NCBI GenBank assembly: GCA_003557545.1
Contig: PWOD01000122.1
Coordinates: forward strand, 1-21,736
DNA length: 21,736 nt
Source of the DNA: a bacterium
GTDB lineage: Bacteria; T1Sed10-126
Direction of reading: 5' to 3'
Shown: in pieces, positions 4,554-20,901 of the stretch
Layout: every line of letters begins with the position of its first letter
Numbering within the stretch: position 1 is the stretch's first letter
Position numbers and translations under genes: made by a program
The notes under the pieces: model-generated
The model's database searches: none
Told to the model about the DNA's origin: nothing
What the model saw: the letters and a program-made list of their open reading frames with translations, nothing else

Positions 4554-4630
4554 TCGCTGTCTTTTTTGTTCTCAATAGGTTAGAATTTTTTAGAACCCAA
4601 ATCTAATTAGAAGCCTGTAGGTGATTATTC

Positions 4631-6385
4631 GTGCACGATTGGAATTTAACCAAGGAAGAGGCAAGGTTTTTACAGGAAGAACTGGCTGAGGACTGTATTT
4701 TAGAGGGCAAACCTGAGGTTGAGCTGGTGGCAGGACTGGATGTGTCATTTTATCCTGGAAGTCAGATCTGTATTGCTTCGGCGGTTAGTTATTCATTAAA
4801 AAATCAGCATGTATGTGAAGAAGTTTTAATAATTTCAAAGCTGGAGTTCCCCTATATTTCAGGGCTGTTGGCCTTTCGTGAAGCACCTCCAATGATTGAG
4901 GCGGCGCTCAGTTTAAAAAACAAACCGGATTGTTTTATAGTTGATGGTCATGGGTATGCCCATCCCCGTCGCATGGGGTTAGCCTCCCATATTGGATTAT
5001 TTTTAGACACTCCGACGATTGGCTGTGCGAAAAACATCCTGGTTGGCGAATACAATGATCCGGGCCCTGAGGTAGGGGATAGCGATGTTATCTGGGACGG
5101 GGAGCCGATCGGTCACGTTATACGGTCGCGAAAGGAGGCTAAACCGATCTTTATTTCACCCGGCCATATGATAGATCCAGAGTATCTTCCGCAGCTGGTA
5201 AAACCGTTTTTGACTGGAGATTACCGGCTGCCGGAACCTCTGCGTCAGGCGGAGATTAAAGCCCGTTCAGAACGTCAGTTGATTGAGCAGATTATTAAGC
5301 CGTTCGTTGACCACGAGATTTCTATTTGTTTTGTTGGTGGTACACTGCGCGATCTGTTAACCGGGAAGAAACCGCGTGATTATGATCTGATGGTGGGTGA
5401 GTTTTCCAGAGAGGTTCGACGTGATCTGGAAAATCAGTTTGGCGGTCACTGGTTTGCCCTGGATCCAGATAGACAGATGTACAGGTTGCCCGGTAAGAAG
5501 ATTCAGCTTGATCTTATGGTTGTGCCCCCGGAAGAGGTAGAAGATGATCTGGAGCGTCGGGATTTTACAATAAACAGTGTGGCCCTGGATATGGGACAGG
5601 ACCTCTGGGTGGATCCTTTTGGTGGTAGAGAGGATGCTAGCAAGAGAGTTTTATGTCCAACAACCAACAGTTCACTGGCCGATGATCCCCTGAGACTTTT
5701 AAGGGGTTATCGACTGGCGGCAGAGCATCATCTGTCTTTCCACCCGCAGTTGCGGGAACGGATTTCTGAGACAGTTCCACTGCTGGGAAGGGTAAGTAAA
5801 GAACGGATTACTGAGGAACTGTTAAAGCTCTGTGGTCGGCAGGATGCTTCCCACTGGTTTGAAGTTATGTATGATGATGGTGTGATGACAGAAGCAGATT
5901 TTTTACGTAGTGAAGTTGTTGAAGAATCACGGATAATTGAACGCTGGAAACCGACGATTAAGAACTATCCGTTGATTAAGGAACGTGAGTATCACGGGGG
6001 TTATGATTTATTGACCTGTTTTAAGATGGCCCGCGCTATCCGTCAATCAGAACTTGATGACTGGCCACTACACCAGCAGATAAAACGGCTCTGTCGGGAA
6101 AGTTTTCTGGGTTTTTCAACTCGCCCGACTGACCTGAAGATTTTAAGTGCCAATTCACTGGCATTGCTGGGTCGGGTTTTAGGACAGGGTTTGACTGAAA
6201 ACTGGGGTGGCCCTAAAATTATTAACAAGATTGTTGAACTGGAGGAATACCTGGAGCTGCGGGGGGAGAAAACCAAGCAGATAGTCGAAGAGCATAAGAA
6301 CGAAGATAATCTTGGTGAGATTAAAAATGAACAGCTGCAGCAGGTTTTACCGGAGCTCTGGTCGAATACTATCGGCGGCAATTAA
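4631..6385 (+). CDS. Fusion of endonuclease V with CCA-adding/poly(A) polymerase-type nucleotidyltransferase
   Basis: Two complete enzymes occur in one 584-aa reading frame. Residues 1-~215 are endonuclease V (Nfi), which cuts nucleic acid next to deaminated bases (inosine). Metal-binding residues fit Asp37 (AGLDVSFY), Glu84 (FREAPP) and Asp105 (VDGHGYAHPRR), with FPYISGLL at 73-80 and PTIGCAKN at 128-135. Residues ~216-584 are a class II nucleotidyltransferase: GGTLRD (236-241), DYD (250-252, metal ligands), ERRDFTINS and DPLRLLRGYR. That class adds CCA to tRNA or poly(A) to RNA. The linker (~200-230) is short and helical. The GTG start has a weak site (TAGGTG). The gene follows the HIT gene by 77 nt and precedes the nuoA-like gene by 15. 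Each domain is recognised with high confidence; the role of the fusion is unknown, and inosine-linked tRNA quality control is a speculation. Confidence 0.88.
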   Translation: MHDWNLTKEEARFLQEELAEDCILEGKPEVELVAGLDVSFYPGSQICIASAVSYSLKNQHVCEEVLIISKLEFPYISGLLAFREAPPMIEAALSLKNKPDCFIVDGHGYAHPRRMGLASHIGLFLDTPTIGCAKNILVGEYNDPGPEVGDSDVIWDGEPIGHVIRSRKEAKPIFISPGHMIDPEYLPQLVKPFLTGDYRLPEPLRQAEIKARSERQLIEQIIKPFVDHEISICFVGGTLRDLLTGKKPRDYDLMVGEFSREVRRDLENQFGGHWFALDPDRQMYRLPGKKIQLDLMVVPPEEVEDDLERRDFTINSVALDMGQDLWVDPFGGREDASKRVLCPTTNSSLADDPLRLLRGYRLAAEHHLSFHPQLRERISETVPLLGRVSKERITEELLKLCGRQDASHWFEVMYDDGVMTEADFLRSEVVEESRIIERWKPTIKNYPLIKEREYHGGYDLLTCFKMARAIRQSELDDWPLHQQIKRLCRESFLGFSTRPTDLKILSANSLALLGRVLGQGLTENWGGPKIINKIVELEEYLELRGEKTKQIVEEHKNEDNLGEIKNEQLQQVLPELWSNTIGGN

Positions 6386-6400: not shown

Positions 6401-6760
6401 ATGATCCGGACAACAGTATTTTCCTGGGCTTCTATAATTTTTTCGGCTGGCCTGGCATTGTTGTTGATGACTGTGCTGGTCAAACTTTTTTCAAAAGAGA
6501 TCCTCCAGTTTTTTTCAACAGAAAGAGCCGGAGATCAGCTTGATAACGAGCCGTGGGATTCTACCCAGAGTTCACCTCAAACCTTTTTTATCATTACATT
6601 AATCCTGATTTTCTGCTGTTTTATCGTTGTTGTTTTACCACTGGTGGTTTTGCAAGAGTTGGCCGGCCAGCAGCTATTTTTATTTTATAAAACCCTGTTT
6701 TTATTTATTGCAGTGTTCATTAGTGGTCTGGCCTACTGGAACCAGTTGGGTGGGATATGA
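6401..6760 (+). CDS. NuoA-like membrane subunit of a divergent complex I-type assembly
   Basis: A 119-aa protein with three predicted membrane helices (about residues 7-28, 62-85, 93-113), the NuoA/NdhC topology. The first loop (SKEILQFFSTERAGDQ) sits where NuoA has its YECG loop, and the last helix ends LAYWNQLGGI, like the NuoA C-terminus. Identification rests on this pattern plus position at the head of a nuo-ordered cluster. The NuoA second-helix motif FDxE, an acidic pair near the quinone/proton entry, is replaced by uncharged residues (IFCCFIVVVLP), and the loop cysteine of YECG is absent. It begins 15 nt after the endonuclease V fusion gene, and its stop overlaps the next start (ATGATGG), implying coupled translation. 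It could be an unrelated small membrane protein, but the context argues against that. Confidence 0.6.
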   Translation: MIRTTVFSWASIIFSAGLALLLMTVLVKLFSKEILQFFSTERAGDQLDNEPWDSTQSSPQTFFIITLILIFCCFIVVVLPLVVLQELAGQQLFLFYKTLFLFIAVFISGLAYWNQLGGI

Positions 6761-7260
6761 TGGAAGTAGAACTTGCCAGTTTTGTTAAATCTTTGCTGCC
6801 GGAGGGGGAACCTTCCAGCTACAGTATCCTGCCCGGCGATTCTGCCATGAAAATTTCTGTTCCCCTTAGATATTTTTCACGGGTCTGTCGTGCTGTCAAA
6901 AAAACAGCACCTTTTTACTTTTTACAGCTGGTCGATATAAATGTTGTGGAAACTTCTCAAACAGATTCTTTATATCAGTTGGTCTATCAACTATATTCCC
7001 ATAAACTGAAGTTGCGTCTTGCTCTGGCGGCTGACTATGGTGGAGAGGAACAGTTTCCAGATATTTCTGATCTCTGGACAACTGCGGCCTGGCTGCAAGC
7101 CCGTGTAGAAGAGCTGTATGGTATAAAATTTGTCAGCTCTCAATTGACGGTGACCGGCAAAGCCAGTTTTTTGCCGTCCGGGACTGAACCATCCGGAATC
7201 AGCCGGGGACAGTTACCCTCGGTGGATATATTTAAAGAGGAGCCGGCTGATGGTTGCTGA
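6757..7260 (+). CDS. NuoC-like (30-kDa type) peripheral subunit
   Basis: A 167-aa soluble protein resembling NuoC, which in complex I forms part of the connecting module beside NuoD. The most telling stretch is LYQLVYQLYSHKLKLRLAL followed by ISDLWTTAAWLQARVEELYGI (about 103-124). It aligns with the family's YHLLS segment and the SVTxLWxxAxWxEREVYDxFGI signature. The highly conserved family C-terminus (HPDLRRIL, then PLRKDY) is missing; the protein ends in an unrelated ~40-residue tail. It overlaps the NuoA-like gene by 4 nt and the NuoD-like gene by 11 nt. A second ATG directly follows the first. Subunit assignment is good, but function in a normal quinone reductase is doubtful because the expected neighbour NuoB is absent. 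Confidence 0.72.
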   Translation: MMEVELASFVKSLLPEGEPSSYSILPGDSAMKISVPLRYFSRVCRAVKKTAPFYFLQLVDINVVETSQTDSLYQLVYQLYSHKLKLRLALAADYGGEEQFPDISDLWTTAAWLQARVEELYGIKFVSSQLTVTGKASFLPSGTEPSGISRGQLPSVDIFKEEPADGC

Positions 7261-8413
7261 TAGCCGGGAGATTAAAACCTATCTCCATCTGCTGCCCGCA
7301 GGTTGTTGTTCGACAAAATTTGCGCCGGCAGTTGAATTAACCCTGGAAGAAAATCTCATTACTGGATGTACACCGGTTACCTGGATTGATTATTTAACTG
7401 ACCGTGGCGCTGTTTTTTTAGAAAAAAATAATGAGGTCAGCCAGCAGTTTTACCTGGCTTATCAGCGGGCGCTCTGTAAAACTGGATTTATTCTTGGCGT
7501 CGAAGTCATTGCACAGATTAATCTCCCACTGATAGCTAAAATTTTGCGCACTTTATTCATAGAGTTGCTTCGGATGGTTGGCCAGTTTTATTGGTTGTCC
7601 AGTGCCGCCCGGCTGTTAGAAATTGAAACGGTGGCATTAGCAGCCCGCCGGGAGGCAGAAACTATTCATTCAGCAGCAAACAATTTTTTTCAGGTTGATC
7701 AGTTGAGCAAGGCCGTTCAACCGGGCGGTTTTTACATGCTGTTTGAGAAGAGACAAATCATCGAACTGGCGAGTCGACTGGAGGAACTGAAAAGGGGTTT
7801 ATCCTATTATAAAAATCGCTTTTTCCATAATTATATTGTTGGCCTAAGAGCCCATAAAAAAGCCATAATATCGATTGAAACAGCTTTAGACATGGGATTG
7901 ACAGGCCCAGTTTTAAAGGCGGCAGGAGTCGATCGGGATTTAAGAAGAGGGGTTTCCGGTTCTGTTTATGATCAGGTAGATTTTAGGATTCCGGTTGCTC
8001 AACGGGGGGATGCTCTGGAGCGGTTTAATGTAAGATTTGAAGAAATAAAACAGAGTCTCCAGATAATTGAGCAGTTGCTGGAAGAAGTTCCAGCCCAGTC
8101 CAATAATAGTCGGGAAACAGCGGTTTTTAATCGTCCCCCGGCGGCCCGGTTTGATGATTTTCTAAAGGGATATCAGAGGTTTTTAAAATTTTCCTCTGAA
8201 GAGCTAGAATTTCCCGGTGGAGAACTTTATTACAGTTTGGAAATGGGCGGTGGAGAGTATGGGTGGTATCTGCTGTCGAATCCCCAGAAATCGTCTATTG
8301 ACTGTCAATACAGAACTCCCGGAGCTGCCAATTTACAGAGTATGAGATATCTTGCTCCTGGCAAGAGATTAGCAGAATTTCATCTTTTATTCGCCAGTCT
8401 TGGCGTTGATTGA
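7250..8413 (+). CDS. NuoD-like (49-kDa type) peripheral subunit, quinone-site motif lost
   Basis: A 387-aa homologue of NuoD, the complex I subunit that with NuoB and NuoH forms the quinone pocket. Clear landmarks are LTGPVLKAAGVDRDLRR (from 217), YDQVDFRIPVAQRGDALERF, RFEEIKQSLQIIEQLL, and a C-terminal block (PGGELYYSLEMGGGEYGWYL, RTPGAANLQSM). The normally invariant N-terminal block with HPSTHG, which carries the quinone-contacting His, cannot be found; the N-terminus reads LHLLPAGCCSTKFAPAVEL instead. The protein ends at ASLGVD, without the usual GEVDR tail. No [NiFe]-hydrogenase cysteine ligands are present, so it is not a hydrogenase large subunit. Its ribosome binding site AAAGAGGAG (7234-7242) lies inside the NuoC-like gene. 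It is probably structural or repurposed. Confidence 0.8.
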   Translation: MVADSREIKTYLHLLPAGCCSTKFAPAVELTLEENLITGCTPVTWIDYLTDRGAVFLEKNNEVSQQFYLAYQRALCKTGFILGVEVIAQINLPLIAKILRTLFIELLRMVGQFYWLSSAARLLEIETVALAARREAETIHSAANNFFQVDQLSKAVQPGGFYMLFEKRQIIELASRLEELKRGLSYYKNRFFHNYIVGLRAHKKAIISIETALDMGLTGPVLKAAGVDRDLRRGVSGSVYDQVDFRIPVAQRGDALERFNVRFEEIKQSLQIIEQLLEEVPAQSNNSRETAVFNRPPAARFDDFLKGYQRFLKFSSEELEFPGGELYYSLEMGGGEYGWYLLSNPQKSSIDCQYRTPGAANLQSMRYLAPGKRLAEFHLLFASLGVD

Positions 8414-8480
8414 GGGATTAAAGTGAAATTGAATGAGCCTCACGACAAGTCATTTTTAGAGCTGCAGGGAAGTCGATAAC

Positions 8481-9563
8481 ATGTTACATACAGCAATCTG
8501 GATCCTGGTTTCCCTGCTCAGGCTAGTTGCCATTTTAGCTCTGTTTGGACTGGCTGCGGGGGCTGTCGCCTGGAGCGTCAGCCGGCGGGTCGGAAATGAT
8601 TCGGTAGTTTTTGTTAATAAACAACGACCGGCCGGTCAACCCCCACAATTATTTATCGAAATTATATCGGTTATTCTGCTGCTGGGGGGGTTAACGGTAA
8701 TTCCCCTGGGAAACTGGTCGATCACTATTTCGGAACTGCATCCAGCTCTGGCCAACTTCCAGATTTATCAGATAGCACCGGGTCAGTACAGCCTGCTTTT
8801 TTTACCTGTTTTAGTGGTTTTGGCCCTGGTAATAAACAGTGGATTCAGGGCTGGATTGATATCCACCAATCTGCCCGAATTACGACTTTTTGCCGGTCTG
8901 CTGCTGGCGGCGCTCTCTGTGCTGTCTGTATTAATTAGTACTGGAACTATCGATACCGGGGAGATTTTATTTTTTCAGAACGATCATGGCTGGTTGTTAC
9001 TGCATAATCCGCTGTCCGCAGTTGGTTTTTTTTCTGCTTCCTACCTGTTAATCGACCGGCGATGGCTGAGTTTACCGGGGATTACTTTTCCTCCCCAGAA
9101 TTTAGTCGAATTGAGAGAATTATTTAGTTCATTGAAACTTGGGCTGGCCCTTGTTTTACTGGCAGCTCTATTTAGCTTGATCTACCTGGGCGGTGCAGCA
9201 GTACCGCTGTTTGGTTTGCTGAGAGATACGGCTTCAGTGGGGCTGAGCGGTAGGTTCGGGTTGCTGCTCCAGCCGGTTGTCTTATTTTTAAAAATCTTTG
9301 CTCTGATCAGTTTATTTGTCTGGTTAAAACTGATTCAGCCAGGTCTGCCTGAAAAACGTTTGTTAAGTTTGATATTTTCTCTAGGGCTACCGGTGCTGCT
9401 GATTGATCTGGTGGTTGCAGCCACTGCTAGAACCGGGGTGGCTCCAGGTAGTTCTGGCTGGTGGTTGCTCCGTGGTGTCTGGACGGTTATTGGGTTCGGC
9501 TGGGTTTGGTACAAAAGTTTTTATTTGTATTCTGGGACTACGATTAAACTGGTCGAACCATAG
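8481..9563 (+). CDS. NuoH-like membrane subunit
   Basis: A 360-aa polytopic protein with about eight to nine predicted helices, in the NuoH position and of NuoH size. The N-terminal helix, followed by SRRVGNDS and RPAGQPPQLF, mirrors the NuoH loop after helix 1. Later segments FLKIFALISLFVWLKLIQPGLP and LPVLLIDLVVAA match the family's WFxxK...FxWxRxTxPR and final-helix blocks. The acidic loop that makes NuoH recognisable (ERxPFDLPEAESEL), which lines the quinone channel, is absent; the equivalent stretch reads DRRWLSLPGITFPPQNL. The ATG has AGGGAAG upstream. There is a 67-nt gap after the NuoD-like gene and a 47-nt gap before the NuoJ-like gene. In canonical order NuoI should come next, but the gap has no room for it. 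Confidence 0.68.
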   Translation: MLHTAIWILVSLLRLVAILALFGLAAGAVAWSVSRRVGNDSVVFVNKQRPAGQPPQLFIEIISVILLLGGLTVIPLGNWSITISELHPALANFQIYQIAPGQYSLLFLPVLVVLALVINSGFRAGLISTNLPELRLFAGLLLAALSVLSVLISTGTIDTGEILFFQNDHGWLLLHNPLSAVGFFSASYLLIDRRWLSLPGITFPPQNLVELRELFSSLKLGLALVLLAALFSLIYLGGAAVPLFGLLRDTASVGLSGRFGLLLQPVVLFLKIFALISLFVWLKLIQPGLPEKRLLSLIFSLGLPVLLIDLVVAATARTGVAPGSSGWWLLRGVWTVIGFGWVWYKSFYLYSGTTIKLVEP

Positions 9564-9610
9564 CGGCGGAAAATTTACTCTGTTATGGTTGGACCGGAGA
9601 TTCAATTCAG

Positions 9611-10138
9611 GTGAATAAAATTATGGCAGAACTTGTTTTTTATTTTTCCTCATTTTTTTTGATAATCGCTCTGGCTGGATTTTTGCGTTCCCGCCGGCCC
9701 GGTCAGAAGCTGTTGCTTATAACTCTTGTTACGGTTTTTAACGTACCACTTTATTTTTTGTTGAACCGGCCGCTTACTGGTCTGCTCATCGGCAGTTTTT
9801 GGATCGGTGCTATTGCTTTGCTGGTATCTACAATTGGGGATGCACGTCCTTGTTCGGCAGTTTTAAGCTTGGCTTCTCTGTATGAAAAAATTATCTGTGC
9901 GGTAGTTATGACTTATGGCGTAATAGTTTTATTCAGCTTGATATTTCAGGTCAACCATGCGGTTCTTCCGGGGGATTTTGGTTTTGACCTGGCCGGTGGC
10001 CGTCATTTGAGTTATCTGGCGATTAATTTATTTTATGGCTACTGGCCATTCTTTTTGCTTGTCGCCCTGTTATTTCTCGGACTGTTTTTGAGTGTGGGGC
10101 ATATTTTTGAACAACTTAAGCTTATCAAGGAGAGTTGA
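9611..10138 (+). CDS. NuoJ-like membrane subunit
   Basis: A 175-aa protein with five predicted helices, as in NuoJ: near residues 7-23, 32-50, 58-75, 90-112 and 138-160. FWIGAIALLV corresponds to the family's VYVGAIxVLFLFV segment on helix 3, where NuoJ has its pi-bulge. The rest is strongly diverged, so the call relies on topology and position between the NuoH- and NuoK-like genes. The listed start is GTG at 9611 with a CGGAG-type site about 11 nt upstream. ATG at 9623, with AGGTG upstream, would shorten it by four residues and is equally plausible. The gene ends TGA at 10136-10138 in the same frame as the following NuoK-like ORF. Confidence 0.65.
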   Translation: MNKIMAELVFYFSSFFLIIALAGFLRSRRPGQKLLLITLVTVFNVPLYFLLNRPLTGLLIGSFWIGAIALLVSTIGDARPCSAVLSLASLYEKIICAVVMTYGVIVLFSLIFQVNHAVLPGDFGFDLAGGRHLSYLAINLFYGYWPFFLLVALLFLGLFLSVGHIFEQLKLIKES

Positions 10139-10159
10139 ACAACAATCTATCCATATTAT

Positions 10160-10432
10160 TTGATTCCCGGTATTTTATTGTTAGCCACAGGGATCTTCGG
10201 TCAACTTAGAAAGACGGGTGGACTGAATCGAGTTTTATCCATTTTCCTGGGGTTCAGCGGACTGTTTTATCTGCTGGCAGTAGTTGGGTATTTTTTTGCT
10301 CTTGATTTGGATAGGGTGTACCTGTTTTGTCTGCTGTTATTGACAGTTGTTCAGCTGATCGTGGCGGTCTTTCTGAGCTGGTTAGAAGGCTTTTTCCCAA
10401 AATCAAGTTCTGAACAGGGAGTCTATAAATGA
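10160..10432 (+). CDS. NuoK-like membrane subunit, start codon uncertain
   Basis: A 90-aa (or slightly longer) three-helix protein in the NuoK position. LLATGIFGQL matches the first helix (LFAIGLYG), RVLSIFLGFSGLFYLLAV the second, and LFCLLLLTVVQLIVAVFL the third. The two membrane glutamates essential for proton transfer in NuoK are not present: the helix-2 site is hydrophobic (around Leu30/Gly31) and the helix-3 site is Gln65. The formal start is TTG at 10160, but it lies about 25 nt from the ribosome binding site AAGGAGAG (10127-10134), and the homologous N-terminus extends upstream (IYPYYLIPG). An ATC at 10145, about 10 nt from that site, fits better. The frame continues from the NuoJ-like gene across its TGA. 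The stop overlaps the NuoL-like start (ATGA). Confidence 0.65.
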   Translation: MIPGILLLATGIFGQLRKTGGLNRVLSIFLGFSGLFYLLAVVGYFFALDLDRVYLFCLLLLTVVQLIVAVFLSWLEGFFPKSSSEQGVYK

Positions 10433-12228
10433 TTGATTATAGTTTTTCTATACTGCTGTTTGCCTCTCTGTTTGGGATTGTTTTAATAATTGGATTGTTC
10501 GATTTGAACAAGGCTTTTAAGCGATTATGGTATCTGCCGTCGGTTCTGTCCAACCTGCTTGATCTGGTTCCTCTTGTAATCAGCTGGCTATTATTATTTA
10601 AAATCGATTCCTTCCAACTTATTTTTCTGGAGTCGCGTTTTTTTGACCTGGGGATTTTTTACGATCGTTCGTCTGCAGTTTTTTTAGTCATGCTGTGGAC
10701 AGCAGTTTTTTTCTTGAAGATTTTTCTGCTATTATTTTTTTCCGGTTCGACTCTGCACCTATATTACTGGTTGATTGAGCTGTTGGGCTTTTCCGGATTG
10801 TTGATCTATCTGGCTCCGGGGGCTGTTCAGCTATTAATCGGTTTATCGATTGGCAGCCTGGGACTCTATCTTTTTGAGGCTAGATTTTCTTCCGAACCAG
10901 AGCAGTTTGATCGGTTGCAGGCTTCATATTGGGGTGCCGGCTGGGCTGTTAACCTGCTGATAGCAGTGACTGTTATCGGTTTGATTATGAGTTTTAATAG
11001 TGAACGTTTTACTGTTTTTTATCCGCTGATCGATCTATCTGCCGCCGATAATATAAGTTATCTGATTGCAGCAGTTTTTCTTGCAGCAGCGGTTCTCTTT
11101 GGAATTTTTCCATTTGTTTCAAAAGCGGTCTATGATCGTGAATTCGTTACTGATCGATTTAATTTTTTTAAATTTTACTTTCTCCTGCCGGCGGTTTGTT
11201 TTTTGCTTCTACGATTCAACAGTTTTTTAGAGTTGTGGCTACCGCTCCGGTTGATTCTATCAATCGGCGGTTTGTTTACTGCACTACAAACTGCTCTGTC
11301 CGGTTTTAGGCAGAAGAAGTTTAACCATCTCGTGGAAACTGTGGTAGGCAGTCATTTGGGAATGATTTTCTTTTTATTTGCTCTGGGCTATGCCCGGCTG
11401 GCAGTCTTTTATCTGTTTTTTCTCTTAGCCGGTCGGGGGGCTGTAGAGTTATCGGGCCGAGCAGCCCTGGGGGCAGCTCGAACCCGGGGATCTTCGCCAC
11501 CCGAGGCTATAAGTTCATTTTATCTGTCAATTTTTCTTCCACTGATAGGACTTTTAATTTTGGCTGGTCTACCGCCGTTCTGGGGATTCTGGGTTAATTT
11601 AGTGCTGCTTGGTGCAATCATTTCTGAGCCCGAATTCTGGTCGTTGATACCTCTGATCTATCTGTTTTTTATCTGTCAGTTATTTCTCCTGTTTAAACTT
11701 ATACGACGGTTGTTGAAGGGGAGCGGGCAGGCGGGTGGTGTTCAGGAATCCCGTCCTCTTATTAGTTTCCTGGGAACCAGCTTTGTGGTATTAATAGGAG
11801 TGGGTGGGGGGCTGCTGTCAGCCGACTATTTTACCAGTCCTGTCGATTTACTTTGGCAATTGCCGCCAAATCAGATTGTTTTTTATTTAGTAATGGTCTT
11901 GCTAGCGGGGGGACTGATCTATTCGACAAGGTATGTTGGAGTTAAATCGAATACTATTTTTCCCGGAGTCCTTATTGGTGTGGCTAATTTTTCAGTCCTG
12001 GGCACTATCTGCGGACAGAAGTTCATCTTGTTGATGGAGTGGCTGAGCAAACTTGTGACCGGCTGGGAAAGACAGGGCCGTCAACGGATCGCTCGACTCC
12101 TCGGAGGCCTGCTGAAACTTTCAGGAGTAGGGTTGGAATTTTTCCAAACCAGGAGTTTAAGTGGCTATTGTTTTTGGGGAACGCTGCTGTTTGTTGGACT
12201 CTTGTTACTGGTTGTTTTATTTTCCTAA
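10429..12228 (+). CDS. NuoL-like antiporter-type membrane subunit
   Basis: A 599-aa, roughly 16-helix protein of the NuoL/Mrp-antiporter family. NuoL rather than M or N is indicated by its size, the LAGLPPFWGFWVN block (378-390) and the C-terminal extension: GWERQGRQRIARLL, then FFQTRSLSGYCFWG, like the NuoL segment ending in lateral helix and last TM (LQTGxLRxY). Key channel residues appear changed. The helix-5 glutamate (GWEGVG in NuoL) is Ser140 in GLSIGS. The helix-7 lysine is a Leu five residues before Pro228. The helix-12 lysine of GFFSK is Asn390. The HAATMV motif is not conserved. These are by-eye alignments. The start overlaps the NuoK-like stop, with AGGGAG upstream. It presumably sits at the distal end of a membrane arm but is unlikely to pump protons in the usual way. 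Confidence 0.78.
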   Translation: MIDYSFSILLFASLFGIVLIIGLFDLNKAFKRLWYLPSVLSNLLDLVPLVISWLLLFKIDSFQLIFLESRFFDLGIFYDRSSAVFLVMLWTAVFFLKIFLLLFFSGSTLHLYYWLIELLGFSGLLIYLAPGAVQLLIGLSIGSLGLYLFEARFSSEPEQFDRLQASYWGAGWAVNLLIAVTVIGLIMSFNSERFTVFYPLIDLSAADNISYLIAAVFLAAAVLFGIFPFVSKAVYDREFVTDRFNFFKFYFLLPAVCFLLLRFNSFLELWLPLRLILSIGGLFTALQTALSGFRQKKFNHLVETVVGSHLGMIFFLFALGYARLAVFYLFFLLAGRGAVELSGRAALGAARTRGSSPPEAISSFYLSIFLPLIGLLILAGLPPFWGFWVNLVLLGAIISEPEFWSLIPLIYLFFICQLFLLFKLIRRLLKGSGQAGGVQESRPLISFLGTSFVVLIGVGGGLLSADYFTSPVDLLWQLPPNQIVFYLVMVLLAGGLIYSTRYVGVKSNTIFPGVLIGVANFSVLGTICGQKFILLMEWLSKLVTGWERQGRQRIARLLGGLLKLSGVGLEFFQTRSLSGYCFWGTLLFVGLLLLVVLFS

Positions 12229-12261
12229 AAGTTTTGTTAAACGGAAAGGATTGAGTGAGTT

Positions 12262-13758
12262 TTGTTATATTTGCTGGTGATTATGGTTCCTTTTACTATA
12301 GCCGGTTTTTTGGTCTGGAGGACTGAGATGTCAACCACCAGACTCACAGCCCGGCAAACCCTGCTATTACTATCAGGCAGCGGGCTGCCCGTACTGTTTG
12401 GGTGGGGAATAATTACTGCCAGCGAATCTTTGCCGGTTGGACTGTTTAATACAGGGTTCTCCTGGTTTGGTGGTATCTCCTCCGAGCGGGTTGAGTCGGT
12501 TGTGGATGGTAGGGCCTTTCTATTTTTTCTTCTATCAGCTTTGTTGATTAGTTTTATGCTATTATTTTTGCTTCAATCAAAACGGATCATCCGGGCCCGC
12601 ACCGGAGTTTTAATAGCCGGATTAACAGGTAGTTTGTATGGATTATTTTTAGCTGGAGACTATTTATTGTTAATTGTTTTCTGGCAGCTTTTAGCCGTTA
12701 TGCTTTACTATTTTATGTTGGACCAGGGATTTTCTGGTCGTCAGGCTGGACTGCAGTTTGCTTTCCGTACTGCTGGTTCAATCATTTTTCTGGGAGTCCT
12801 TGCTCTAATGGTTGGTTCGGGAGATAGTTTAACTGTCAGTTTTTCTTCTGTCCTTCCAGCATCAGTGACGAATGGAGGAAATGGCTGGTTACTAACTGCA
12901 CTGGTCATAGCTTTTATTGCCGGCGGCGGCCTTTTTCCTCTGCATTTTAGATCGAACTCAGGGACAGCAGAGCCAACCATTGAAACCCAGTTTTTTGTTA
13001 CTGTTTTAGTTCCTGTTTCTGCCCTCTATATCATCTCTCGAATCATTCCGTTCGGTGCTTCGCAAGGATTTCCGCTGCAGTATGGGCTGTTTATTGTAGT
13101 TATGCTGGGGATAGTTTATGGGGCTCTGCTGGCGTTGGGTAGCAGCTCTTCAGAACAGTTTATCAACTATCTTTCCATCAGCTCTTATTCGATTGCTCTG
13201 GCAGCCTTATTAGCGGGGATCATATCGGCCTGTCCCCCGGCTCTTTTTCAGACATTTTCTACGGCTTTAATTGTTTCCGGTCTAATCCTTTCTACACGGT
13301 CAACGCTCAGCTTGAAAACCAGTGAAAACCGTAAATTATCCCCCGGCAAACAATCAGGCTGGCAGCTTAGAGGTAACTATTTTGCAGCAGTTTTTTTACT
13401 GGCGTCCGCCGGTTTTGTTGGTAGTTCGGGATTTATTGGAATCCTTACGGTTGCTCTAACTATTTTGGAGTTTTCTTCTGCTGCAGGTTTACTGCTGGTC
13501 GCTCTGGTTTTCTCCGGCGGCCTGTTTGGTTATAAATTTTTTACCGATTTTTTAATGCTTAAACCTGTTGTTTTATCGCCAGCTGTACTATTGAAGCTTG
13601 CTATTATATTAATAATAATAATTTATTTGGGGTTGAATCCTAATCCTCTGTTTGAGGCATTCAGCTGTCCGGAAACAGCAACCAGGCAAATCAGCCAAAT
13701 GAGCTTTTCCCGTGAAACAGTCAATATTTCTGAGTTGTTCTTTCGGGGGGGTGGATAG
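12262..13758 (+). CDS. NuoM-like antiporter-type membrane subunit
   Basis: A 498-aa polytopic member of the same family, of NuoM length and in the NuoM position. LLIVFWQLLAVMLYYFML corresponds to NuoM FYVFFELxLIPMYFLI, with the essential glutamate replaced by Gln142. FRTAGSIIFL matches the FxxYTxxGSxxML block. GGGLFPLHFRSNSGTAEPT (221-239) matches the KxPxxPFHTWLPDAHxEAPT region, with the channel lysine replaced by Gly221 and the following LK also lost; the motif histidine (His228) is kept. The start is TTG at 12262, 11 nt after AAAGGA and two codons after an in-frame stop, so no longer protein is possible. It ends overlapping or abutting the NuoN-like gene. Confidence 0.72.
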   Translation: MLYLLVIMVPFTIAGFLVWRTEMSTTRLTARQTLLLLSGSGLPVLFGWGIITASESLPVGLFNTGFSWFGGISSERVESVVDGRAFLFFLLSALLISFMLLFLLQSKRIIRARTGVLIAGLTGSLYGLFLAGDYLLLIVFWQLLAVMLYYFMLDQGFSGRQAGLQFAFRTAGSIIFLGVLALMVGSGDSLTVSFSSVLPASVTNGGNGWLLTALVIAFIAGGGLFPLHFRSNSGTAEPTIETQFFVTVLVPVSALYIISRIIPFGASQGFPLQYGLFIVVMLGIVYGALLALGSSSSEQFINYLSISSYSIALAALLAGIISACPPALFQTFSTALIVSGLILSTRSTLSLKTSENRKLSPGKQSGWQLRGNYFAAVFLLASAGFVGSSGFIGILTVALTILEFSSAAGLLLVALVFSGGLFGYKFFTDFLMLKPVVLSPAVLLKLAIILIIIIYLGLNPNPLFEAFSCPETATRQISQMSFSRETVNISELFFRGGG

Positions 13759-13759
13759 T

Positions 13760-15151
13760 TTGCTGATTGAACTATATGTTTTTTCTCCATTTATTATTCT
13801 GTTTATTGGTGCTCTGGGCTGTATGCTCTGGAAGTTGTGGTCTGAAGATTCGGTTGAAATTATTTTTTTCACCTGTTTTATTTTGCTGCTTACTGCTGTT
13901 GCTTTGTTGTCAGGGGTGGAAGGAGAGGCCGGGTCGTTACTGCTGGATAGCCCGGCCAAAATGGCTTTTTTGCTTATTATAGTTGTTCAGTTGATAGGGT
14001 TGCTATATTCCTATATCTATTTGCGTTCCCATCTTCTTCCGGCGGTAGTCTACTGTTTTTTGTATCTGTTGTTAACCGCTGGTAGTGGTCTCATGGTTAG
14101 CACGACTAATCTGTTGACCTTTTATCTGGGATTGGAGCTGACGGTTTTCGCCGGCTGTTTTCTGGCTTTTTATGATTGTGACTTCACCCGGTTCAAACTA
14201 AGTCGTAATTATTTTTTCATCAATCTTCTGGGAAGTTTGTTCTTTCTGGTCAGTTTCCTGCTGATGTTTGTCGGATATAGAACTGTGGATCTCGCCCAGA
14301 TCGATTCAAGATTGCTGGCCGAACAACCTGGTTTATTACTGGGAGTTTTGCTGGCAATAGCTTTCAAGGGTGGACTGGGCCCCTTTTATTTTCTCTTTCG
14401 CGATTTTTATAATAGTGCTCCCACACCGCTGACCTTCAGTTTTTTTGCTGCAGTCAGAACCGCGCTGTTGATTTTTTTCCTGCGAGTTGTGCAGCTTTTT
14501 TCACCGGCAGATTCTGTTGTATGGCTCTGTTTTTTGGTGGGTTTCGGTTTTATTTTACTGTTTTTTCCAGTTTTACAGGCCTTTGTTCAAAACTCATTAA
14601 AAGAAAGTGCTATCGGGATTTTTTTGGCCAGTGGTGGGATTTTTCTTTTTTTGCTGGCCAGTGGCGACTCCTCAGTAACTCCGCTCTTTTTTTATCTATT
14701 GCAGGTCCAGTTGCTTTTGTTTGCTGGGCTTTCCGGGGTTATTTTAATAATAGATTCCTCAGCAAAAACAATGTATAAGATTAACCGTTCAGTTGATAAC
14801 CAGTCCGGTTCAGCTTCGTGGCTTCTCTGGCAGGGTATCTTTCTTGCTTTTATTGGGGTCCCGCCGCTGGGAAGTTTTATCGCCTTATATCTTATTATCT
14901 TGAGATTCGCCCGGTCAGGTATGTTGATTTTATTGCTGTTATTGGCGCCCGCATATCTGCTCCTGACTGTAACAGTTTTAAAAGTTGCTCGCAGGTATCT
15001 GATGAAGTTTCAGTCCGCTTATAGCGCAGTCTGGTTCGATAATAATATTGCTAAACGGTTGCTCTGTCTTGTCGTCTGGTTTAGTTTGACAGCTCTATTG
15101 ATGATGGGTTTTTTCCCTGAATTGTTTCTGAATTTTCCCCTCTTTTCTTAA
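13760..15151 (+). CDS. NuoN-like antiporter-type membrane subunit
   Basis: A polytopic protein (about 463 aa from the chosen start) of the NuoN branch. Unlike the L- and M-like subunits it keeps the core channel residues. Glu126 in LGLELTV is the helix-5 acid. Lys203 in AFKGGLGPFYF is the helix-7 lysine, followed by RDFYNSAPTPLT (NuoN: PDVYEGAPTPVT). Arg233 stands where NuoN has the PK or SK lysine. The helix-12 lysine (GGFxGKF) is lost in GVPPLGSFIALYL. I prefer TTG at 13760, directly after the previous stop and behind a G-rich site. A GTG at 13712 would add 16 residues and overlap the NuoM-like gene by 47 nt. It is the last gene of the run; the 336 nt downstream are AT-rich, with only weak stem-loops. 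Confidence 0.75.
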   Translation: MLIELYVFSPFIILFIGALGCMLWKLWSEDSVEIIFFTCFILLLTAVALLSGVEGEAGSLLLDSPAKMAFLLIIVVQLIGLLYSYIYLRSHLLPAVVYCFLYLLLTAGSGLMVSTTNLLTFYLGLELTVFAGCFLAFYDCDFTRFKLSRNYFFINLLGSLFFLVSFLLMFVGYRTVDLAQIDSRLLAEQPGLLLGVLLAIAFKGGLGPFYFLFRDFYNSAPTPLTFSFFAAVRTALLIFFLRVVQLFSPADSVVWLCFLVGFGFILLFFPVLQAFVQNSLKESAIGIFLASGGIFLFLLASGDSSVTPLFFYLLQVQLLLFAGLSGVILIIDSSAKTMYKINRSVDNQSGSASWLLWQGIFLAFIGVPPLGSFIALYLIILRFARSGMLILLLLLAPAYLLLTVTVLKVARRYLMKFQSAYSAVWFDNNIAKRLLCLVVWFSLTALLMMGFFPELFLNFPLFS

Positions 15152-15487: not shown

Positions 15488-16528
15488 ATGCAAACTAAAG
15501 GTTTTCGTGGTAAGGATTTTATAACTTTGAGGGATTTCACGCGGGAAGAGATTGATAGTCTGTTGGAAGTCGGATTTGATCTCAAGAAACGTTATGCATT
15601 AAAAGAACGACATTCTCACATACTTCCAGATAAAACACTTTACATGATATTTTATAATCAGTCTTTAAGGACTAGAAACTCCTTTGAGGCCGGGATGACG
15701 CAGCTGGGAGGTCATGCCCATTTTCTTTCCTCCGATAAGATTTATACACCGGCGGTAGAGGGGGAAGAAAAGGCTTATTCGACCGAACGGGTCTCGGATG
15801 TCGCGCGGACTCTGGAGAGGTTTGGTGACGCCATAGCGATTCGGATGTATGGTCCGCCGACCGGTTGGGTTTACGGAAAGGCTAATTCTTATATGAATGA
15901 GTTTGCCCGTTGGACCAACATTCCGATCATCAACATGGAATGTGATAAATACCATCCCTGTCAGGCTCTGTCAGATCTTTTAACAATCAAGGAGAAACTG
16001 GGAACTTTCAAGAAGAAGAAATTCGTCATGTCCTGGGCCTATTCTCCCTCCTATGAGAAACCTCTAAGTGTTCCCCAATCGGCAATTATTGCGGCTTCAA
16101 AAATGGGTATGGATGTGGTGCAGGCTCAGCCCAAGGGGTTTGAGCTTGATGAGGAGATACTCGACGCCTGTTCTAAATATGCCGAAGATGCCGGCGGTAG
16201 CTTTGAAGTCAGCTATGACATGGATGAGGCTTTTGAAGATGCACATGTTGTCTATCCCAAATGCTGGGGGTCAAAGTCTGAGTTCGAAAACGTTGCCGAA
16301 GGTGATGATTCCGGCATGGTCAAGCTGTTTGAGCAGAACAAAGATTGGAAATGTGATGCTGACAAACTGGCGCTGGCCCGAGAAAATGCCCTTTACATGC
16401 ATTGTTTGCCAGCAGATCGAGGCTGGGAAGTTACCGATGATGTGATAGATGGTCCGCAATCGGTTGTGTTTGATGAGGCCGAAAACCGGCTGCACGCGCA
16501 AAAAGCCGTCATGAGTCTGGTGATGTAA
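15488..16528 (+). CDS. YgeW-type (catabolic, aspartate/ornithine-like) carbamoyltransferase 1
   Basis: A 346-aa member of the aspartate/ornithine carbamoyltransferase superfamily. Carbamoyl-phosphate-binding motifs are present: SLRTR (59-63, in FYNQSLRTRNSFE), HPCQ (156-159) and HCLPADRGWEVTDDV (from 305). The segment FVMSWAYSPSYEKPLSVPQS (179-198) is characteristic of the knotted YgeW branch and differs from classical OTC, which has DGNN there. YgeW enzymes are thought to run in the degradative direction, forming carbamoyl phosphate from a ureido compound; purine-derived ureides have been proposed. The start has a near-ideal AAAGGAGG site. The paralogue follows after 1 nt. The true amine substrate cannot be told from sequence. 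Confidence 0.85.
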   Translation: MQTKGFRGKDFITLRDFTREEIDSLLEVGFDLKKRYALKERHSHILPDKTLYMIFYNQSLRTRNSFEAGMTQLGGHAHFLSSDKIYTPAVEGEEKAYSTERVSDVARTLERFGDAIAIRMYGPPTGWVYGKANSYMNEFARWTNIPIINMECDKYHPCQALSDLLTIKEKLGTFKKKKFVMSWAYSPSYEKPLSVPQSAIIAASKMGMDVVQAQPKGFELDEEILDACSKYAEDAGGSFEVSYDMDEAFEDAHVVYPKCWGSKSEFENVAEGDDSGMVKLFEQNKDWKCDADKLALARENALYMHCLPADRGWEVTDDVIDGPQSVVFDEAENRLHAQKAVMSLVM

Positions 16529-16529
16529 A

Positions 16530-17555
16530 ATGGCCTTGCGAAAGAGTAGTTTAAACGGCAAGTCAATGATTACCACACAGGATCTCAGTCGGGAGGAGAT
16601 TCTGGAGATTATCCAGGTGGCCGAGGCCATGCAGAAACATCGTTTTTCCGATGAGTATACCGGGGTTTTAAAACATCAAAGTTTTTTGATGTTTTTCTAT
16701 AATCCTTCGGTCCGCACCCGACAGTCGTTTGAAATTGCTGCGACTGAGTTGGGTGGCCATGGTCTGTACCTGGAACCGGGCGGTATGCGTCTTAAGACTA
16801 AGGATCGTGCCGGTGAAACGATTGAGGATGTAGCCGGGGTAATGAACCGTTACGGCTGTGGTGTTGGGATTCGTATTCTTGAAGGGAAACTCGATTATTA
16901 TGGCCGGGGCGATGAGATTCTGCGTGAATACGACCGCTATCTGAAAGTCCCCCTGGTGAGTTTTGCCCACGATCGTTTTCATCCCTGTCAGGGACTGGCT
17001 GATGCCATGGGTTACCGCAAACATTTAGGTGAACATCTTGAGGGAAAAACGATTGTTCACCAGTGGGGCCACGGAGCCCTGGCTCGTTCCCATTGTTCTG
17101 TTCAGGAGAGTATGTTGATCTGTTCACGGCTGGGAATGAATGTTCGGGTCGCTCATCCACCCGGTTATGAGCTTGATCAAGAGGTGATCGATTGGACAAA
17201 GCAAAACTGTGCGGAAAATTCGGCTGAGTTTTCCGTGACAAATGATCCTGTCGAAGCCTATGAGGATGCCGACATAGTCTATTCCCGTAACTGGATGAGT
17301 ACAGATGCCTATAGTGGCGGCGAGTTTCATAAGGAGCAAGAGGTTGAGAAGGCCATGCAATATACCGACTGGATCTGTGATGAGGAAAAGATGAAGCTGA
17401 CCAACAACGGCTTCTTTTCACATCCCATGCCGGTGGATAGAACCCATGAAGTTACTGATGAAGTAGCTTCTGGACCTCGCTCAATTATTCTTGATATAGC
17501 CGAAAACAGGCTGCACGTTCAGAAGGCCTATATGGCTCTATCAATGGGTAGTTAA
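16530..17555 (+). CDS. YgeW-type carbamoyltransferase 2, with altered catalytic loop
   Basis: A 341-aa paralogue of the preceding gene. It keeps PSVRTR (59-64, in FFYNPSVRTRQSFE) and HPCQ (151-154), but where OTC and YgeW have HCLP it carries HPMPVDRTHEVTDEV (from 298), closer to the HPLPR of aspartate carbamoyltransferase. The middle loop is VHQWGHGALARSHCSVQES, at the position of AYSPSYxKPLSVPQ in its neighbour. These changes lie where the second (amine) substrate binds, so it probably uses a different acceptor or donor from gene 1, or the two form a hetero-oligomer. The ATG is 1 nt after the previous stop, with little ribosome binding site, suggesting coupled translation. The transcript ends at the terminator 24 nt downstream. 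Confidence 0.82.
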   Translation: MALRKSSLNGKSMITTQDLSREEILEIIQVAEAMQKHRFSDEYTGVLKHQSFLMFFYNPSVRTRQSFEIAATELGGHGLYLEPGGMRLKTKDRAGETIEDVAGVMNRYGCGVGIRILEGKLDYYGRGDEILREYDRYLKVPLVSFAHDRFHPCQGLADAMGYRKHLGEHLEGKTIVHQWGHGALARSHCSVQESMLICSRLGMNVRVAHPPGYELDQEVIDWTKQNCAENSAEFSVTNDPVEAYEDADIVYSRNWMSTDAYSGGEFHKEQEVEKAMQYTDWICDEEKMKLTNNGFFSHPMPVDRTHEVTDEVASGPRSIILDIAENRLHVQKAYMALSMGS

Positions 17556-17578
17556 AAATCCTTTTATGTTTGGCAATG

Positions 17579-17616
17579 ATATGCTGACAGGTTAACTTGA
17601 CCTGTCAGCATATTTT
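17579..17616 (+). terminator. Strong intrinsic terminator after the tandem carbamoyltransferases
   Basis: A perfect 14-bp stem is formed by 17579-17592 and 17600-17613 (core GCTGACAGGT / ACCTGTCAGC), with a 7-nt loop TAACTTG. The right arm runs into TTTT (17613-17616). The run of T is short, but the stem is long and GC-rich in the centre. Confidence 0.85.
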
Positions 17617-17855
17617 GCTTATTATTACCGTTCACCGGTTTGTTGCAAATTTACCCGAATAAACAGGCAGAGTCAGCGGTGAGCGCCATTCAGAACGATT
17701 ATTTATCAGGCTGATCTTATAATAAAAGCCGGTTGTTATTTAACGGTAGTGGGAGTTGTACAGGTTGCGGGTTGAAATTATAGGGCAGCTGATTTTTCAA
17801 TTATCTTTGATAATACGGCGCAACAGGTTCGAAATTATTTTGAGGAGGATCTATT
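17617..17855. promoter_or_regulatory. Leader/promoter region of the carbamate kinase genes
   Basis: This gap follows a terminator, so it must carry the promoter of the next three genes if they are not read through. A perfect TATAAT lies at 17718-17723 without a good -35. A palindrome ATTATC-TTT-GATAAT (17800-17814) lies 42 nt before the ATG and could be an operator. No known riboswitch or gene is recognised. Confidence 0.35.
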
Positions 17856-18800
17856 ATGCCTAAAGCAGTCGTCGCAGTTGGTGGCAACTCACTTATTTCT
17901 GAGAAAGGGAAGGAATCTGTTCCAGATCAATATACAGCCGTGGTGGCAACGGCCCGTCACATAGCCGGAATGATTGAGCGGGGTTGGGATGTTGTGGTTA
18001 CCCATGGTAATGGACCCCAGGTTGGGTTTATTTTACTCCGGGCGGAGCTGGCCAAAAAACATGCTGGTCTGCATGATGTTCCTCTTGATTCCTGTGTGGC
18101 TGATACCCAGGGGGCTATTGGATATACTTTTCAGCAGGTTTTAAAAAATGAATTTGAACGCCGAGGTATCGATAAAAATGCGGTTACACTGGTTACACGG
18201 GTTCTGGTTGATAAAAATGATCAGGCGTTTGATAATCCTGCTAAACCGATTGGACCGTTTATGGAAGAGGAGGAGGCCCGTCAACACCAGGACGAAGATG
18301 GATGGGATGTGGTGGAAGATTCAGGACGGGGTTATCGCCGGGTGGTTCCCTCTCCGGCACCGGTTGAAATAATTGAGGAAGAATCGATTAAAACCCTGGT
18401 CGAAAAGGGAGATACCGTGATTGGAGTAGGGGGCGGAGGTATCCCTGTTTATCGTCGAGAGGATGGGATTATTGCCGGTATCGCTGCTGTCATTGATAAA
18501 GATGCTGCTTCTTCAGTGCTGGCTAAAAATATTGGGGCTGAGCTGTTTCTTGTTTCTACAGCTGTGGAACAGGTCTGTATCAACTTTGGTCAACCGGATG
18601 AACAGCCACTTGATGAGATGACGGTGGCTGAGGCCAAACAGTACATTGAGGAGGGCCATTTTGCGCCCGGCAGCATGAAACCAAAGGTTGAAGCTGTGAT
18701 TGATTTTCTGGAAGCTGGTGGTAAAGAAGCGATTATTACTACTCCCTATAATATTGAAAAAGCTCTGGAAGGAAAAGCAGGCACCCGGGTGGTTAATTAA
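17856..18800 (+). CDS. arcC: Carbamate kinase
   Basis: A 314-aa carbamate kinase of the amino-acid-kinase fold. It transfers phosphate from carbamoyl phosphate to ADP, giving ATP and carbamate, which decays to CO2 and NH3. Motifs: VGGNSL (8-13), THGNGPQVG (49-57), then DTQGAIGY, GVGGGGIPV and DKDAAS, the nucleotide- and phosphate-binding loops of ArcC/YqeA. The length is typical. The ATG has GAGGAGG at good spacing. Two nucleotides separate it from the PLP enzyme gene, so the two are cotranscribed. The position between three carbamoyltransferases shows that the block works in the catabolic direction. The symbol arcC is used for the enzyme activity; the yqeA-type paralogue cannot be distinguished here. 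Confidence 0.95.
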   Translation: MPKAVVAVGGNSLISEKGKESVPDQYTAVVATARHIAGMIERGWDVVVTHGNGPQVGFILLRAELAKKHAGLHDVPLDSCVADTQGAIGYTFQQVLKNEFERRGIDKNAVTLVTRVLVDKNDQAFDNPAKPIGPFMEEEEARQHQDEDGWDVVEDSGRGYRRVVPSPAPVEIIEEESIKTLVEKGDTVIGVGGGGIPVYRREDGIIAGIAAVIDKDAASSVLAKNIGAELFLVSTAVEQVCINFGQPDEQPLDEMTVAEAKQYIEEGHFAPGSMKPKVEAVIDFLEAGGKEAIITTPYNIEKALEGKAGTRVVN

Positions 18801-18802
18801 CA

Positions 18803-19996
18803 ATGGCTAATCATCTGACTTCGTTTGTCTGTTTTAACTGTCGAACCGAGCATCCTGCTGATTATGATGGTTATCTGTGCCGCGAGTGTGGAGGTAATCT
18901 GAATGCAGTTTATGATTACCAGGCGGTGGCGGAGAGTTTTACTGTCGATCGATTGAAACAGGATGATGAGCAGACAGTCTGGCGGTACAGTGAGCTGTTC
19001 CCCTTTGCTGATCGGCGCAATGTACCCGGTTTGCATATGGGAATTACGCCACTTTATCGGAACAGAATAATTGAGCAACAGATCGATACCGAGTTAATCT
19101 ACCTGAAGGATGATACCCGGTTACCTTCTGCCTCTTTTAAAGATCGGGCCAGCAGTGTAGTAATGGCGGTGGCTATTGAGAAGGGAGTTGAACGGGTGGC
19201 CTGTGCTTCCACAGGAAATGCCGGTTGCTCATGGGCCTGCATGGGAGCGACCTGTGGTATGCCTGTGACAATCTTTGTGCCCGCTTCAGCACCAGAAGCT
19301 AAGATAGCTCAGTTGGAGGTTTATGGTGCTGATGTGCGGAGGGTTGACGGTAGTTATGATGATGCCTTTGCTCTCTGTGTGGAAGAGTGCGAAAAACATG
19401 GTTATTTCAACCGTAATACAGGATTTAATCCCTATACTCGTGAAGGGAAAAAATCTGTTTCATTTGAGATCTGGGAACAGTTTGGCTATCGTGCTCCTGC
19501 TTCGGTCTTTGTTCCGGTTGGTGATGGTAATATTATCAGTGGTGTCTGGAAAGGTTTTTATGATCTGCAGCAGCTGGGTCTGATTGATGAGATGCCAGCG
19601 ATTTTTGCGGTTCAGAGTACTAATTCTGATGCAATTGCAAAGACAATCAGTACTATTGAGCAGGGCAGTCAGAGTCTGGATGATTTTACAGTGGCGACTG
19701 TTTCAGCCACAACGCGTGCCGATTCGATAGCGGTCGATACCCCAAGTGATGGGGTGTCGGCGGTCAGGGCGGTTATGGAGACCGGCGGTAAGGCCGTTAC
19801 AGTCAGTGACCAGGAGATTCTGGCGGAGATTTGGGAGCTTGCATCCAGCACAGGAATTTTTGCTGAACCGGCCGGCGTCACGGCCGTTGCCGGGTTGAAA
19901 AAATTCGCTCTGGCTGGCGGAGTAGTGCCAGCTCCCGCTGTTGCACTTGTTACAGGAAATGGATTAAAAGACGTTAAGGCGGTGTTAGAGGCATGA
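18803..19996 (+). CDS. Threonine synthase-family PLP enzyme with N-terminal zinc ribbon
   Basis: A 397-aa fold-type II PLP enzyme. An N-terminal zinc ribbon uses Cys10, Cys13, Cys26 and Cys29. The PLP lysine is Lys113 in PSASFKDRAS, the phosphate-side STGNAG is at 136-141, and VGDGNIISG stands for the glycine-rich phosphate loop. Closest by eye is threonine synthase (O-phosphohomoserine to threonine), and databases would probably label it thrC. However, no other threonine genes are present; it sits between carbamate kinase and OTC and overlaps OTC by 4 nt. Escherichia coli pairs YgeW and YqeA with another fold-II PLP enzyme, the diaminopropionate ammonia-lyase YgeX, so a lyase or beta-replacement role on an amino acid from the carbamoyltransferase reactions is an alternative. 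Confidence 0.8.
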   Translation: MANHLTSFVCFNCRTEHPADYDGYLCRECGGNLNAVYDYQAVAESFTVDRLKQDDEQTVWRYSELFPFADRRNVPGLHMGITPLYRNRIIEQQIDTELIYLKDDTRLPSASFKDRASSVVMAVAIEKGVERVACASTGNAGCSWACMGATCGMPVTIFVPASAPEAKIAQLEVYGADVRRVDGSYDDAFALCVEECEKHGYFNRNTGFNPYTREGKKSVSFEIWEQFGYRAPASVFVPVGDGNIISGVWKGFYDLQQLGLIDEMPAIFAVQSTNSDAIAKTISTIEQGSQSLDDFTVATVSATTRADSIAVDTPSDGVSAVRAVMETGGKAVTVSDQEILAEIWELASSTGIFAEPAGVTAVAGLKKFALAGGVVPAPAVALVTGNGLKDVKAVLEA

Positions 19997-20901
19997 GTAA
20001 AAAGGATTTTGTGATTTTAACTGATTATGACAGGAAGACGCTGGAAGAGATTATTCAACGCGCTCGAGAGCTTAAAGGAGGAGCTCAGCCGCAACGTGGT
20101 AAAGATAAGGCGCTGGCCATGATTTTTACCAAACCATCGACCAGAACCAACGTTTCCTTTCGTATGGCAATGCATAGGTTGGGTGGTACTTCGATGTATC
20201 TCGGGAATGAAACTCTTCAACTTTCCCGGGGCGAGACTATTGAGGATACGGGCCGCACGCTGGCCCGGTATGTGGATATAGTTATGATTCGGACCTTTGA
20301 TCATGTTGATGTTGAAAACCTGGCAGCCGGTTCGACAGTCCCTGTTATTAACGGGTTGACCGATCTGTGTCATCCCTGTCAGGCCATGGGTGATGTTCTG
20401 ACCCTGGTAGAATCAATTGATTGTGAGCTGTCGGAGGCGAAATTGACCTATATTGGTGATGGTAATAACGTCTGTCATTCATTGATCAATGCTGCTGGTA
20501 TTTTTGGATTTAAACTGACCGTTTGTGCGCCACCGCAGTTTGCGCCGTCCCCTGCTATTGTCAGACCAATGCAGGAAAAAAATCCCAGTATTGAGGTGGT
20601 TTCTGACCCTCAGTCCGCCGTAGTTGGAGCGGATGCCATTTATACTGATGTCTGGGTAAGTATGGGCGATGAAGAGGAGGCTGAGCAAAGATATCAAACT
20701 TTTGGTGATTACCAGGTTAACTCTCAGCTCCTGCAACAGGCCAAGGACTCCTGTATAGTACTGCACTGTCTGCCGGCTAATCGAGGAGAAGAGTTGACTG
20801 ATGAGGTAATGGATGGTCCTCGATCACGGATTTTTGATCAGGCAGAAAATCGAATGCACAGTCAGCAGGCTATTCTGGAATATCTTCTGGGAACCGTTTG
20901 A
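19993..20901 (+). CDS. argF: Ornithine carbamoyltransferase
   Basis: A 302-aa classical OTC interconverting ornithine plus carbamoyl phosphate with citrulline. All signatures are present: KPSTRT (47-52), HPCQ (127-130), DGNN (156-159), DVWVSMGDE (219-227; the SMG loop binds ornithine) and HCLPANRG (258-265). It is of normal size, unlike the longer YgeW-type pair. It overlaps the PLP enzyme gene (ATGA) and is the last gene of the carbamate kinase operon, so it likely works catabolically with carbamate kinase, as in the arginine deiminase pathway (arcB role). An arginine deiminase (arcA) is not in the window. Catabolic and biosynthetic OTCs cannot be separated safely from sequence, so the symbol denotes the enzyme. 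Confidence 0.93.
   Translation: MSKKDFVILTDYDRKTLEEIIQRARELKGGAQPQRGKDKALAMIFTKPSTRTNVSFRMAMHRLGGTSMYLGNETLQLSRGETIEDTGRTLARYVDIVMIRTFDHVDVENLAAGSTVPVINGLTDLCHPCQAMGDVLTLVESIDCELSEAKLTYIGDGNNVCHSLINAAGIFGFKLTVCAPPQFAPSPAIVRPMQEKNPSIEVVSDPQSAVVGADAIYTDVWVSMGDEEEAEQRYQTFGDYQVNSQLLQQAKDSCIVLHCLPANRGEELTDEVMDGPRSRIFDQAENRMHSQQAILEYLLGTV

Follow-up and report, generated by a model that had tools for sequence, protein, structure and literature searches.

A fused endonuclease V and tRNA nucleotidyltransferase, predicted to be of the CC-adding type, in two genera of 'Candidatus Busufiota'

To our knowledge, an alkyltransferase-endonuclease V protein from Ferroplasma acidarmanus is the sole other fusion known to contain endonuclease V (EndoV). 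It is likewise a two-enzyme protein, and its partner domain is a DNA repair alkyltransferase; this means that both of its halves act on DNA damage (Kanugula 2005, via PMC10779285). In the protein described here, by contrast, a nuclease of DNA and RNA damage is joined to a tRNA maturation enzyme. The EndoV from Escherichia coli is reported to be equally efficient on inosine in RNA, and a trypanosome EndoV cleaves inosine-34 tRNA mimics in vitro (PMC5561087). For the other half, the closest described system is the Aquifex CC-adding enzyme AaS (PDB entries 3wfo-3wfs), of which 3wfr is named as a CC-adding enzyme (PMC4810234). In bacterial CC-adding enzymes, the flexible loop responsible for the switch of specificity to ATP is missing (PMC7014341; PMC3925840), although transplantation of the loop failed to convert the specificity in some cases (PMC3925840).

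The window analysed here is the whole stretch of 21,736 nucleotides, which belongs to a genome (G000) of T1Sed10-126, or 'Candidatus Busufiota'. Two genomes of this lineage are listed, with sizes of 2.15-2.2 Mb and an origin in the sediment of hypersaline soda lakes (PMC11382960); two saltmarsh metagenome-assembled genomes of the phylum appear in PMC12942990. The one other genome of the phylum among those searched (G001) is the metagenome-assembled genome T1Sed10_126, and both are approximately 92-93% complete, so that about 8% of each is missing. The features of the fusion gene are as follows.

4619..4624, + strand: probable ribosome-binding site AGGTGA (sequence inspection)
4631..6385, + strand: fusion gene, 584 amino acids, EndoV and class II tRNA nucleotidyltransferase of predicted CC-adding type (open reading frame translation, Pfam, orthologue)
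4700..5254, + strand: EndoV domain, residues 24-208, with Asp37, Tyr75, Glu84, Asp105, His111, and Lys134 intact
5255..5323, + strand: linker, residues 209-231, free of stops and of equal length in both genera
5330..5653, + strand: nucleotidyltransferase head, residues 234-341, with GGTLRD...DYD, Asp294, RRDFTIN, and DPFGG
5513..5554, + strand: short flexible-loop region, residues 295-308, 14 residues from the third catalytic Asp to motif B
Residues 351-358: template motif DDPLRLLR, just N-terminal of the neck domain
5735..5887, + strand: neck domain PolyA_pol_RNAbd, residues 369-419 (Pfam)
5888..6382, + strand: C-terminal body and tail region, residues 420-584

Three Pfam families match the translation above their curated cut-offs: Endonuclease_5 at residues 24-208 (4e-62), PolyA_pol at residues 234-341 (2.1e-15), and PolyA_pol_RNAbd at residues 369-419 (1.6e-8). 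These domains, together with the orthologue described below, agree with the sequence-only reading, in which this open reading frame had been taken for EndoV fused to a nucleotidyltransferase.

The EndoV half is matched by PF04493 with 209.8 bits against a cut-off of 23.4, over positions 9-197 of the 198 in the profile. Residues 1-211 align almost without gaps with the bacterial EndoVs (nfi) of the solved Thermotoga type, 2w35 and 3hd0. Asp37, Glu84, and Asp105 align with Asp43, Glu89, and Asp110 of 2w35, whereas the wedge residue Tyr75 and His111 align with Tyr80 and His116, respectively; all the catalytic and wedge positions checked are thus kept in the fusion protein. In the transferase half, motif A (GGTLRD at residues 236-241 and DYD at 250-252, Asp294 being the third catalytic Asp), motif B (RRDFTIN), motif C (DPFGG), and motif D (DDPLR) are all present, and their key positions are invariant compared with the relatives. 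The observation from the first inspection that both halves retain their catalytic residues is therefore borne out. No second EndoV was found by a search of the G000 genome. The EndoV half most likely still acts on inosine-containing DNA, as is usual for the family, and possibly on such RNA too.

The orthologue in G001, which belongs to a different genus, also consists of 584 residues. It has the same architecture and is collinear and gapless with the G000 protein at 60% identity. An AGGTGAT sequence was seen close upstream of its start codon. In the EndoV part, the identities between the two genomes at codon positions 1, 2, and 3 are 0.77, 0.88, and 0.46, and in the head and neck they are 0.61, 0.79, and 0.38. 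In both halves the third position is far less conserved than the second, which indicates purifying selection at the protein level on both. In the comparison of the two genomes, no internal start codon common to them was found at the junction. Both genomes are draft assemblies, G001 being metagenome-assembled, so that an assembly or frameshift artefact uniting two adjacent genes has to be considered. However, the same fusion, of equal length and without gaps, occurs in two genera, on contigs that differ in size and in the genes upstream; Nuo-like genes lie downstream in both. An artefact is extremely improbable on this evidence. The gapless orthologue, the selection on both halves, and the lack of a shared start at the junction mean that the fusion is one inherited protein, conserved across the two genera, rather than the two separate genes, divided by a stop or a start, that had initially been envisaged as the alternative.

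Protein searches of 290 and 385 overlapping genomes (approximately 386 distinct ones, spread over many bacterial families) detected the fusion only in G000 and G001, and two scans of the genome collection likewise yielded the G001 orthologue and no further case. Well over 100 other EndoVs were among the matches listed, and none has a transferase within the match; in this respect the present protein, with its transferase of 370 residues, is unlike the other bacterial EndoVs. In phage and plasmid collections, no record covered 80% of the fusion query or both halves, and a scan of viral contigs gave a single EndoV and no fusion. Full-text searches, which covered the literature in part, found no paper that describes EndoV and a tRNA nucleotidyltransferase as a fusion. 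The genomes and papers searched are a portion of those in existence, and the term "unreported" therefore holds within these collections. Within them, no third case came to light, in keeping with the early impression that the domain pairing is unusual; the pairing is real and apparently unreported. A 602-residue EndoV frame in G337 was rejected as a further fusion, its length reflecting an open frame that runs on through GC-rich sequence. Ancestry from an operon of adjacent EndoV and transferase genes was also unsupported: the two genes of the sole nearby pair, in G072, are separated by approximately 4 kb that includes ABC-transporter and transposase-like genes.

The length of the loop, counted from the third catalytic Asp to motif B, was measured in 72 nucleotidyltransferases. 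Two classes were observed, a short one of 8-14 residues, extended to 18 by the Aquifex CC-adding enzyme, and a long one of 23-36 residues; the short-loop sequences were chosen partly for weak profile matches, so that the proportions of the classes are biased, and one row (L171) is ambiguously aligned, but the gap between the classes is clear. The loop of the fusion protein has 14 residues, whereas that of a second nucleotidyltransferase encoded in the same genome, of the DHH-CBS type, has 30. Every CCA- or A-type enzyme sampled has a loop of at least 23 residues. The NCBIfam CCA and PcnB profiles gave at most 88 bits with the fusion protein, below cut-offs of at least 290. In the tree, the fusion protein is placed among the short-loop enzymes including the Aquifex CC-adding enzyme, a position of modest support (83/81). 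The DHH-CBS protein falls within the well-supported DHH-CBS/A-adding clade (100/96).

The fused transferase shares with AaS the head and neck, the short loop, and an A-adding homologue in the same genome. It differs in the EndoV domain, which AaS does not have, and in the loop, which has 18 residues in AaS. Its C-terminus is also diverged from AaS: in residues 420-584 (5888-6382 in the window), the HD-domain residues found in most related CC-type enzymes have been lost, and no family match was obtained for this region. An AlphaFold model built from the two sequences had a pLDDT of 42.5 and was too poor for use.

The second nucleotidyltransferase combines DHH, DHHA1, CBS, and PolyA_pol domains and has 873 residues in G000 and 867 in G001. 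Its best solved matches are 3h37 and 4wby, which we take to be the Thermotoga maritima CCA enzyme and the Aquifex A-adding enzyme, respectively. The question raised at the outset of whether the genome has another CCA-type enzyme is thus answered by an A-adding homologue, and its presence points to the fused half as the CC-adding partner. The two types also occur together elsewhere. Of the sampled genomes, 24 have a nucleotidyltransferase frame of 815 residues or more, and 19 of these also carry a short-loop enzyme; a second nucleotidyltransferase is present in 28 of the 29 genomes with a short-loop enzyme. In G000, CCA is not encoded in 39 of the 40 tRNA genes (L036-L075), the exception being initiator tRNA-Met. 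This means that CCA has to be added after transcription.

The best reading of these data is that the fused transferase is a CC-adding enzyme of the short-loop class and neither a generic CCA-adding enzyme nor a poly(A) polymerase. The original label, "CCA-adding/poly(A) polymerase-type", was thus right about the domain; the specificity it implied is disfavoured by the short loop and the DHH-CBS partner. Two observations would fit complete CCA addition or poly(A) synthesis by the fused enzyme, the DHH-CBS protein then being redundant or otherwise employed. Among the solved structures, the transferase half scores highest with the CCA-adding enzyme 1miv, the 3wfo-3wfs group being second, and DHH-CBS-type relatives vary in specificity. 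That of T. maritima is a full CCA enzyme (PMC3925840), and the fused enzyme could accordingly be free for another role if the same held here. Nevertheless, a loop of 14 residues falls outside the range of all the sampled CCA- and A-type enzymes, and the fusion protein groups with the short-loop enzymes in the tree, which makes full CCA or poly(A) activity quite unlikely.

The loop class, the tree, the co-occurrence in genomes, and the CCA-less tRNA genes together suggest a CCA system divided between two enzymes, with the fusion protein as the predicted CC-adding partner. In this system, RNase Z would trim the tRNA to the discriminator base, the C-terminal transferase would add C74 and C75 to the trimmed tRNAs, and the separate DHH-CBS nucleotidyltransferase would add A76, while the EndoV domain would make nicks at inosine (deaminated adenine) in DNA and probably in RNA as well. 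RNase Z was found at full length in both genomes, with 290 and 276 bits, just below the strict curated cut-off of 293. Processing of tRNA 3' ends by EndoV is thus not needed, and the idea that EndoV takes the place of RNase Z was rejected. It is probable that the protein is a bifunctional EndoV/CC-adding enzyme in such a system, a lineage-specific fusion without substrate coupling being the most economical form of this reading. Sequence comparison is the basis for predicting the two activities, the restriction to CC, and the assignment of the steps to separate enzymes.

The sequence-only reading had suggested that the two halves are coupled through wobble inosine: EndoV would cut tRNAs containing inosine at position 34, and the transferase would repair or tag them. 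Such a mechanism might draw on the in vitro cleavage of I34 tRNA-like substrates by an EndoV, as cited above (PMC5561087). However, the tRNA sets of these genomes contradict it. The tRNA-Arg anticodons are CCT, TCT, TCG, and GCG in G000, and CCT, TCT, CCG, TCG, and GCG in G001. No tRNA-Arg(ACG) was found among the 40 tRNA genes of G000 or among 30 of the 41 of G001 (L086-L115; 11 were not retrieved), where the Arg set already covers CGN; these codons are read by the GCG, TCG, and, in G001, CCG anticodons. Nor did the TadA-type deaminase family give a match at cut-off in either genome, each 92-93% complete as stated above; the one weak match was RibD-like. Furthermore, CC addition takes place at the acceptor end and not at a break in the anticodon loop. 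Coupling through wobble inosine is highly improbable in view of these findings, unless the missing part of each genome contains both an A34 tRNA gene and tadA. The nearby trmL gene, which had been offered as a pointer to wobble chemistry, has no bearing on inosine, since TrmL modifies U34/C34.

Other short-loop nucleotidyltransferases are also joined to unrelated domains. In G027, a NusB domain precedes a short-loop (CC-type) nucleotidyltransferase in one protein of 568 residues (L152:11-1717), and in G072 a short-loop nucleotidyltransferase with an HD domain carries a C-terminal family 2 glycosyltransferase (L076:5692-7755; 687 residues). These resemble the present protein in joining a short-loop transferase to an unrelated domain, and they differ in the partner domains and the lineages. 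Such cases indicate that linkage need not mean functional coupling; by analogy with them, an incidental fusion without substrate coupling is the simpler view. Three further short-loop nucleotidyltransferases (L158, L160, and L161) have N-terminal extensions of 130-260 residues without a Pfam match.

A functional link of another kind might be tRNA surveillance. The CC-adding half would bring tRNAs to EndoV, which would cut those with accidental inosine during 3' maturation; the inosine might come from spontaneous deamination or misincorporated ITP, and such tethering would have become safe once wobble inosine was lost. The activities of the E. coli EndoV on inosine in RNA and of the trypanosome enzyme on inosine-34 tRNA mimics (PMC5561087) are consistent with this model. 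With neither an A34 tRNA-Arg nor a TadA-type enzyme found in either genome, normal tRNAs would be expected to escape cleavage. On the other hand, matches of TadA strength were present in 57 of 89 genomes spread over the phyla and missing in about a third, so that their absence here is weak evidence for the model and not diagnostic. The unrelated fusion partners of CC-type enzymes elsewhere also speak against it, and surveillance seems rather unlikely. That the CC-adding half hands every newly trimmed tRNA to EndoV, as a damage checkpoint enabled by the loss of wobble inosine, is unlikely as well. If the halves were coupled, the protein would provide a concrete test of bacterial EndoV acting on RNA in vivo, which is an open question in the EndoV literature. 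If they are not, the fusion shows how readily CC-adding enzymes acquire unrelated partners.

In the window, the fusion gene is followed at 6401-15151 by a Nuo-like cluster, which consists of a small open reading frame, NuoC, NuoD, NuoH-like and antiporter-like genes, and unassigned open reading frames. The first genes of this cluster after the fusion gene are in the same order in G001. The interval 15488-20901 holds three carbamoyltransferase-family paralogues alongside a PALP enzyme and a gene of the amino-acid-kinase type, and this set resembles the ygeW/ygeX/carbamate kinase set.
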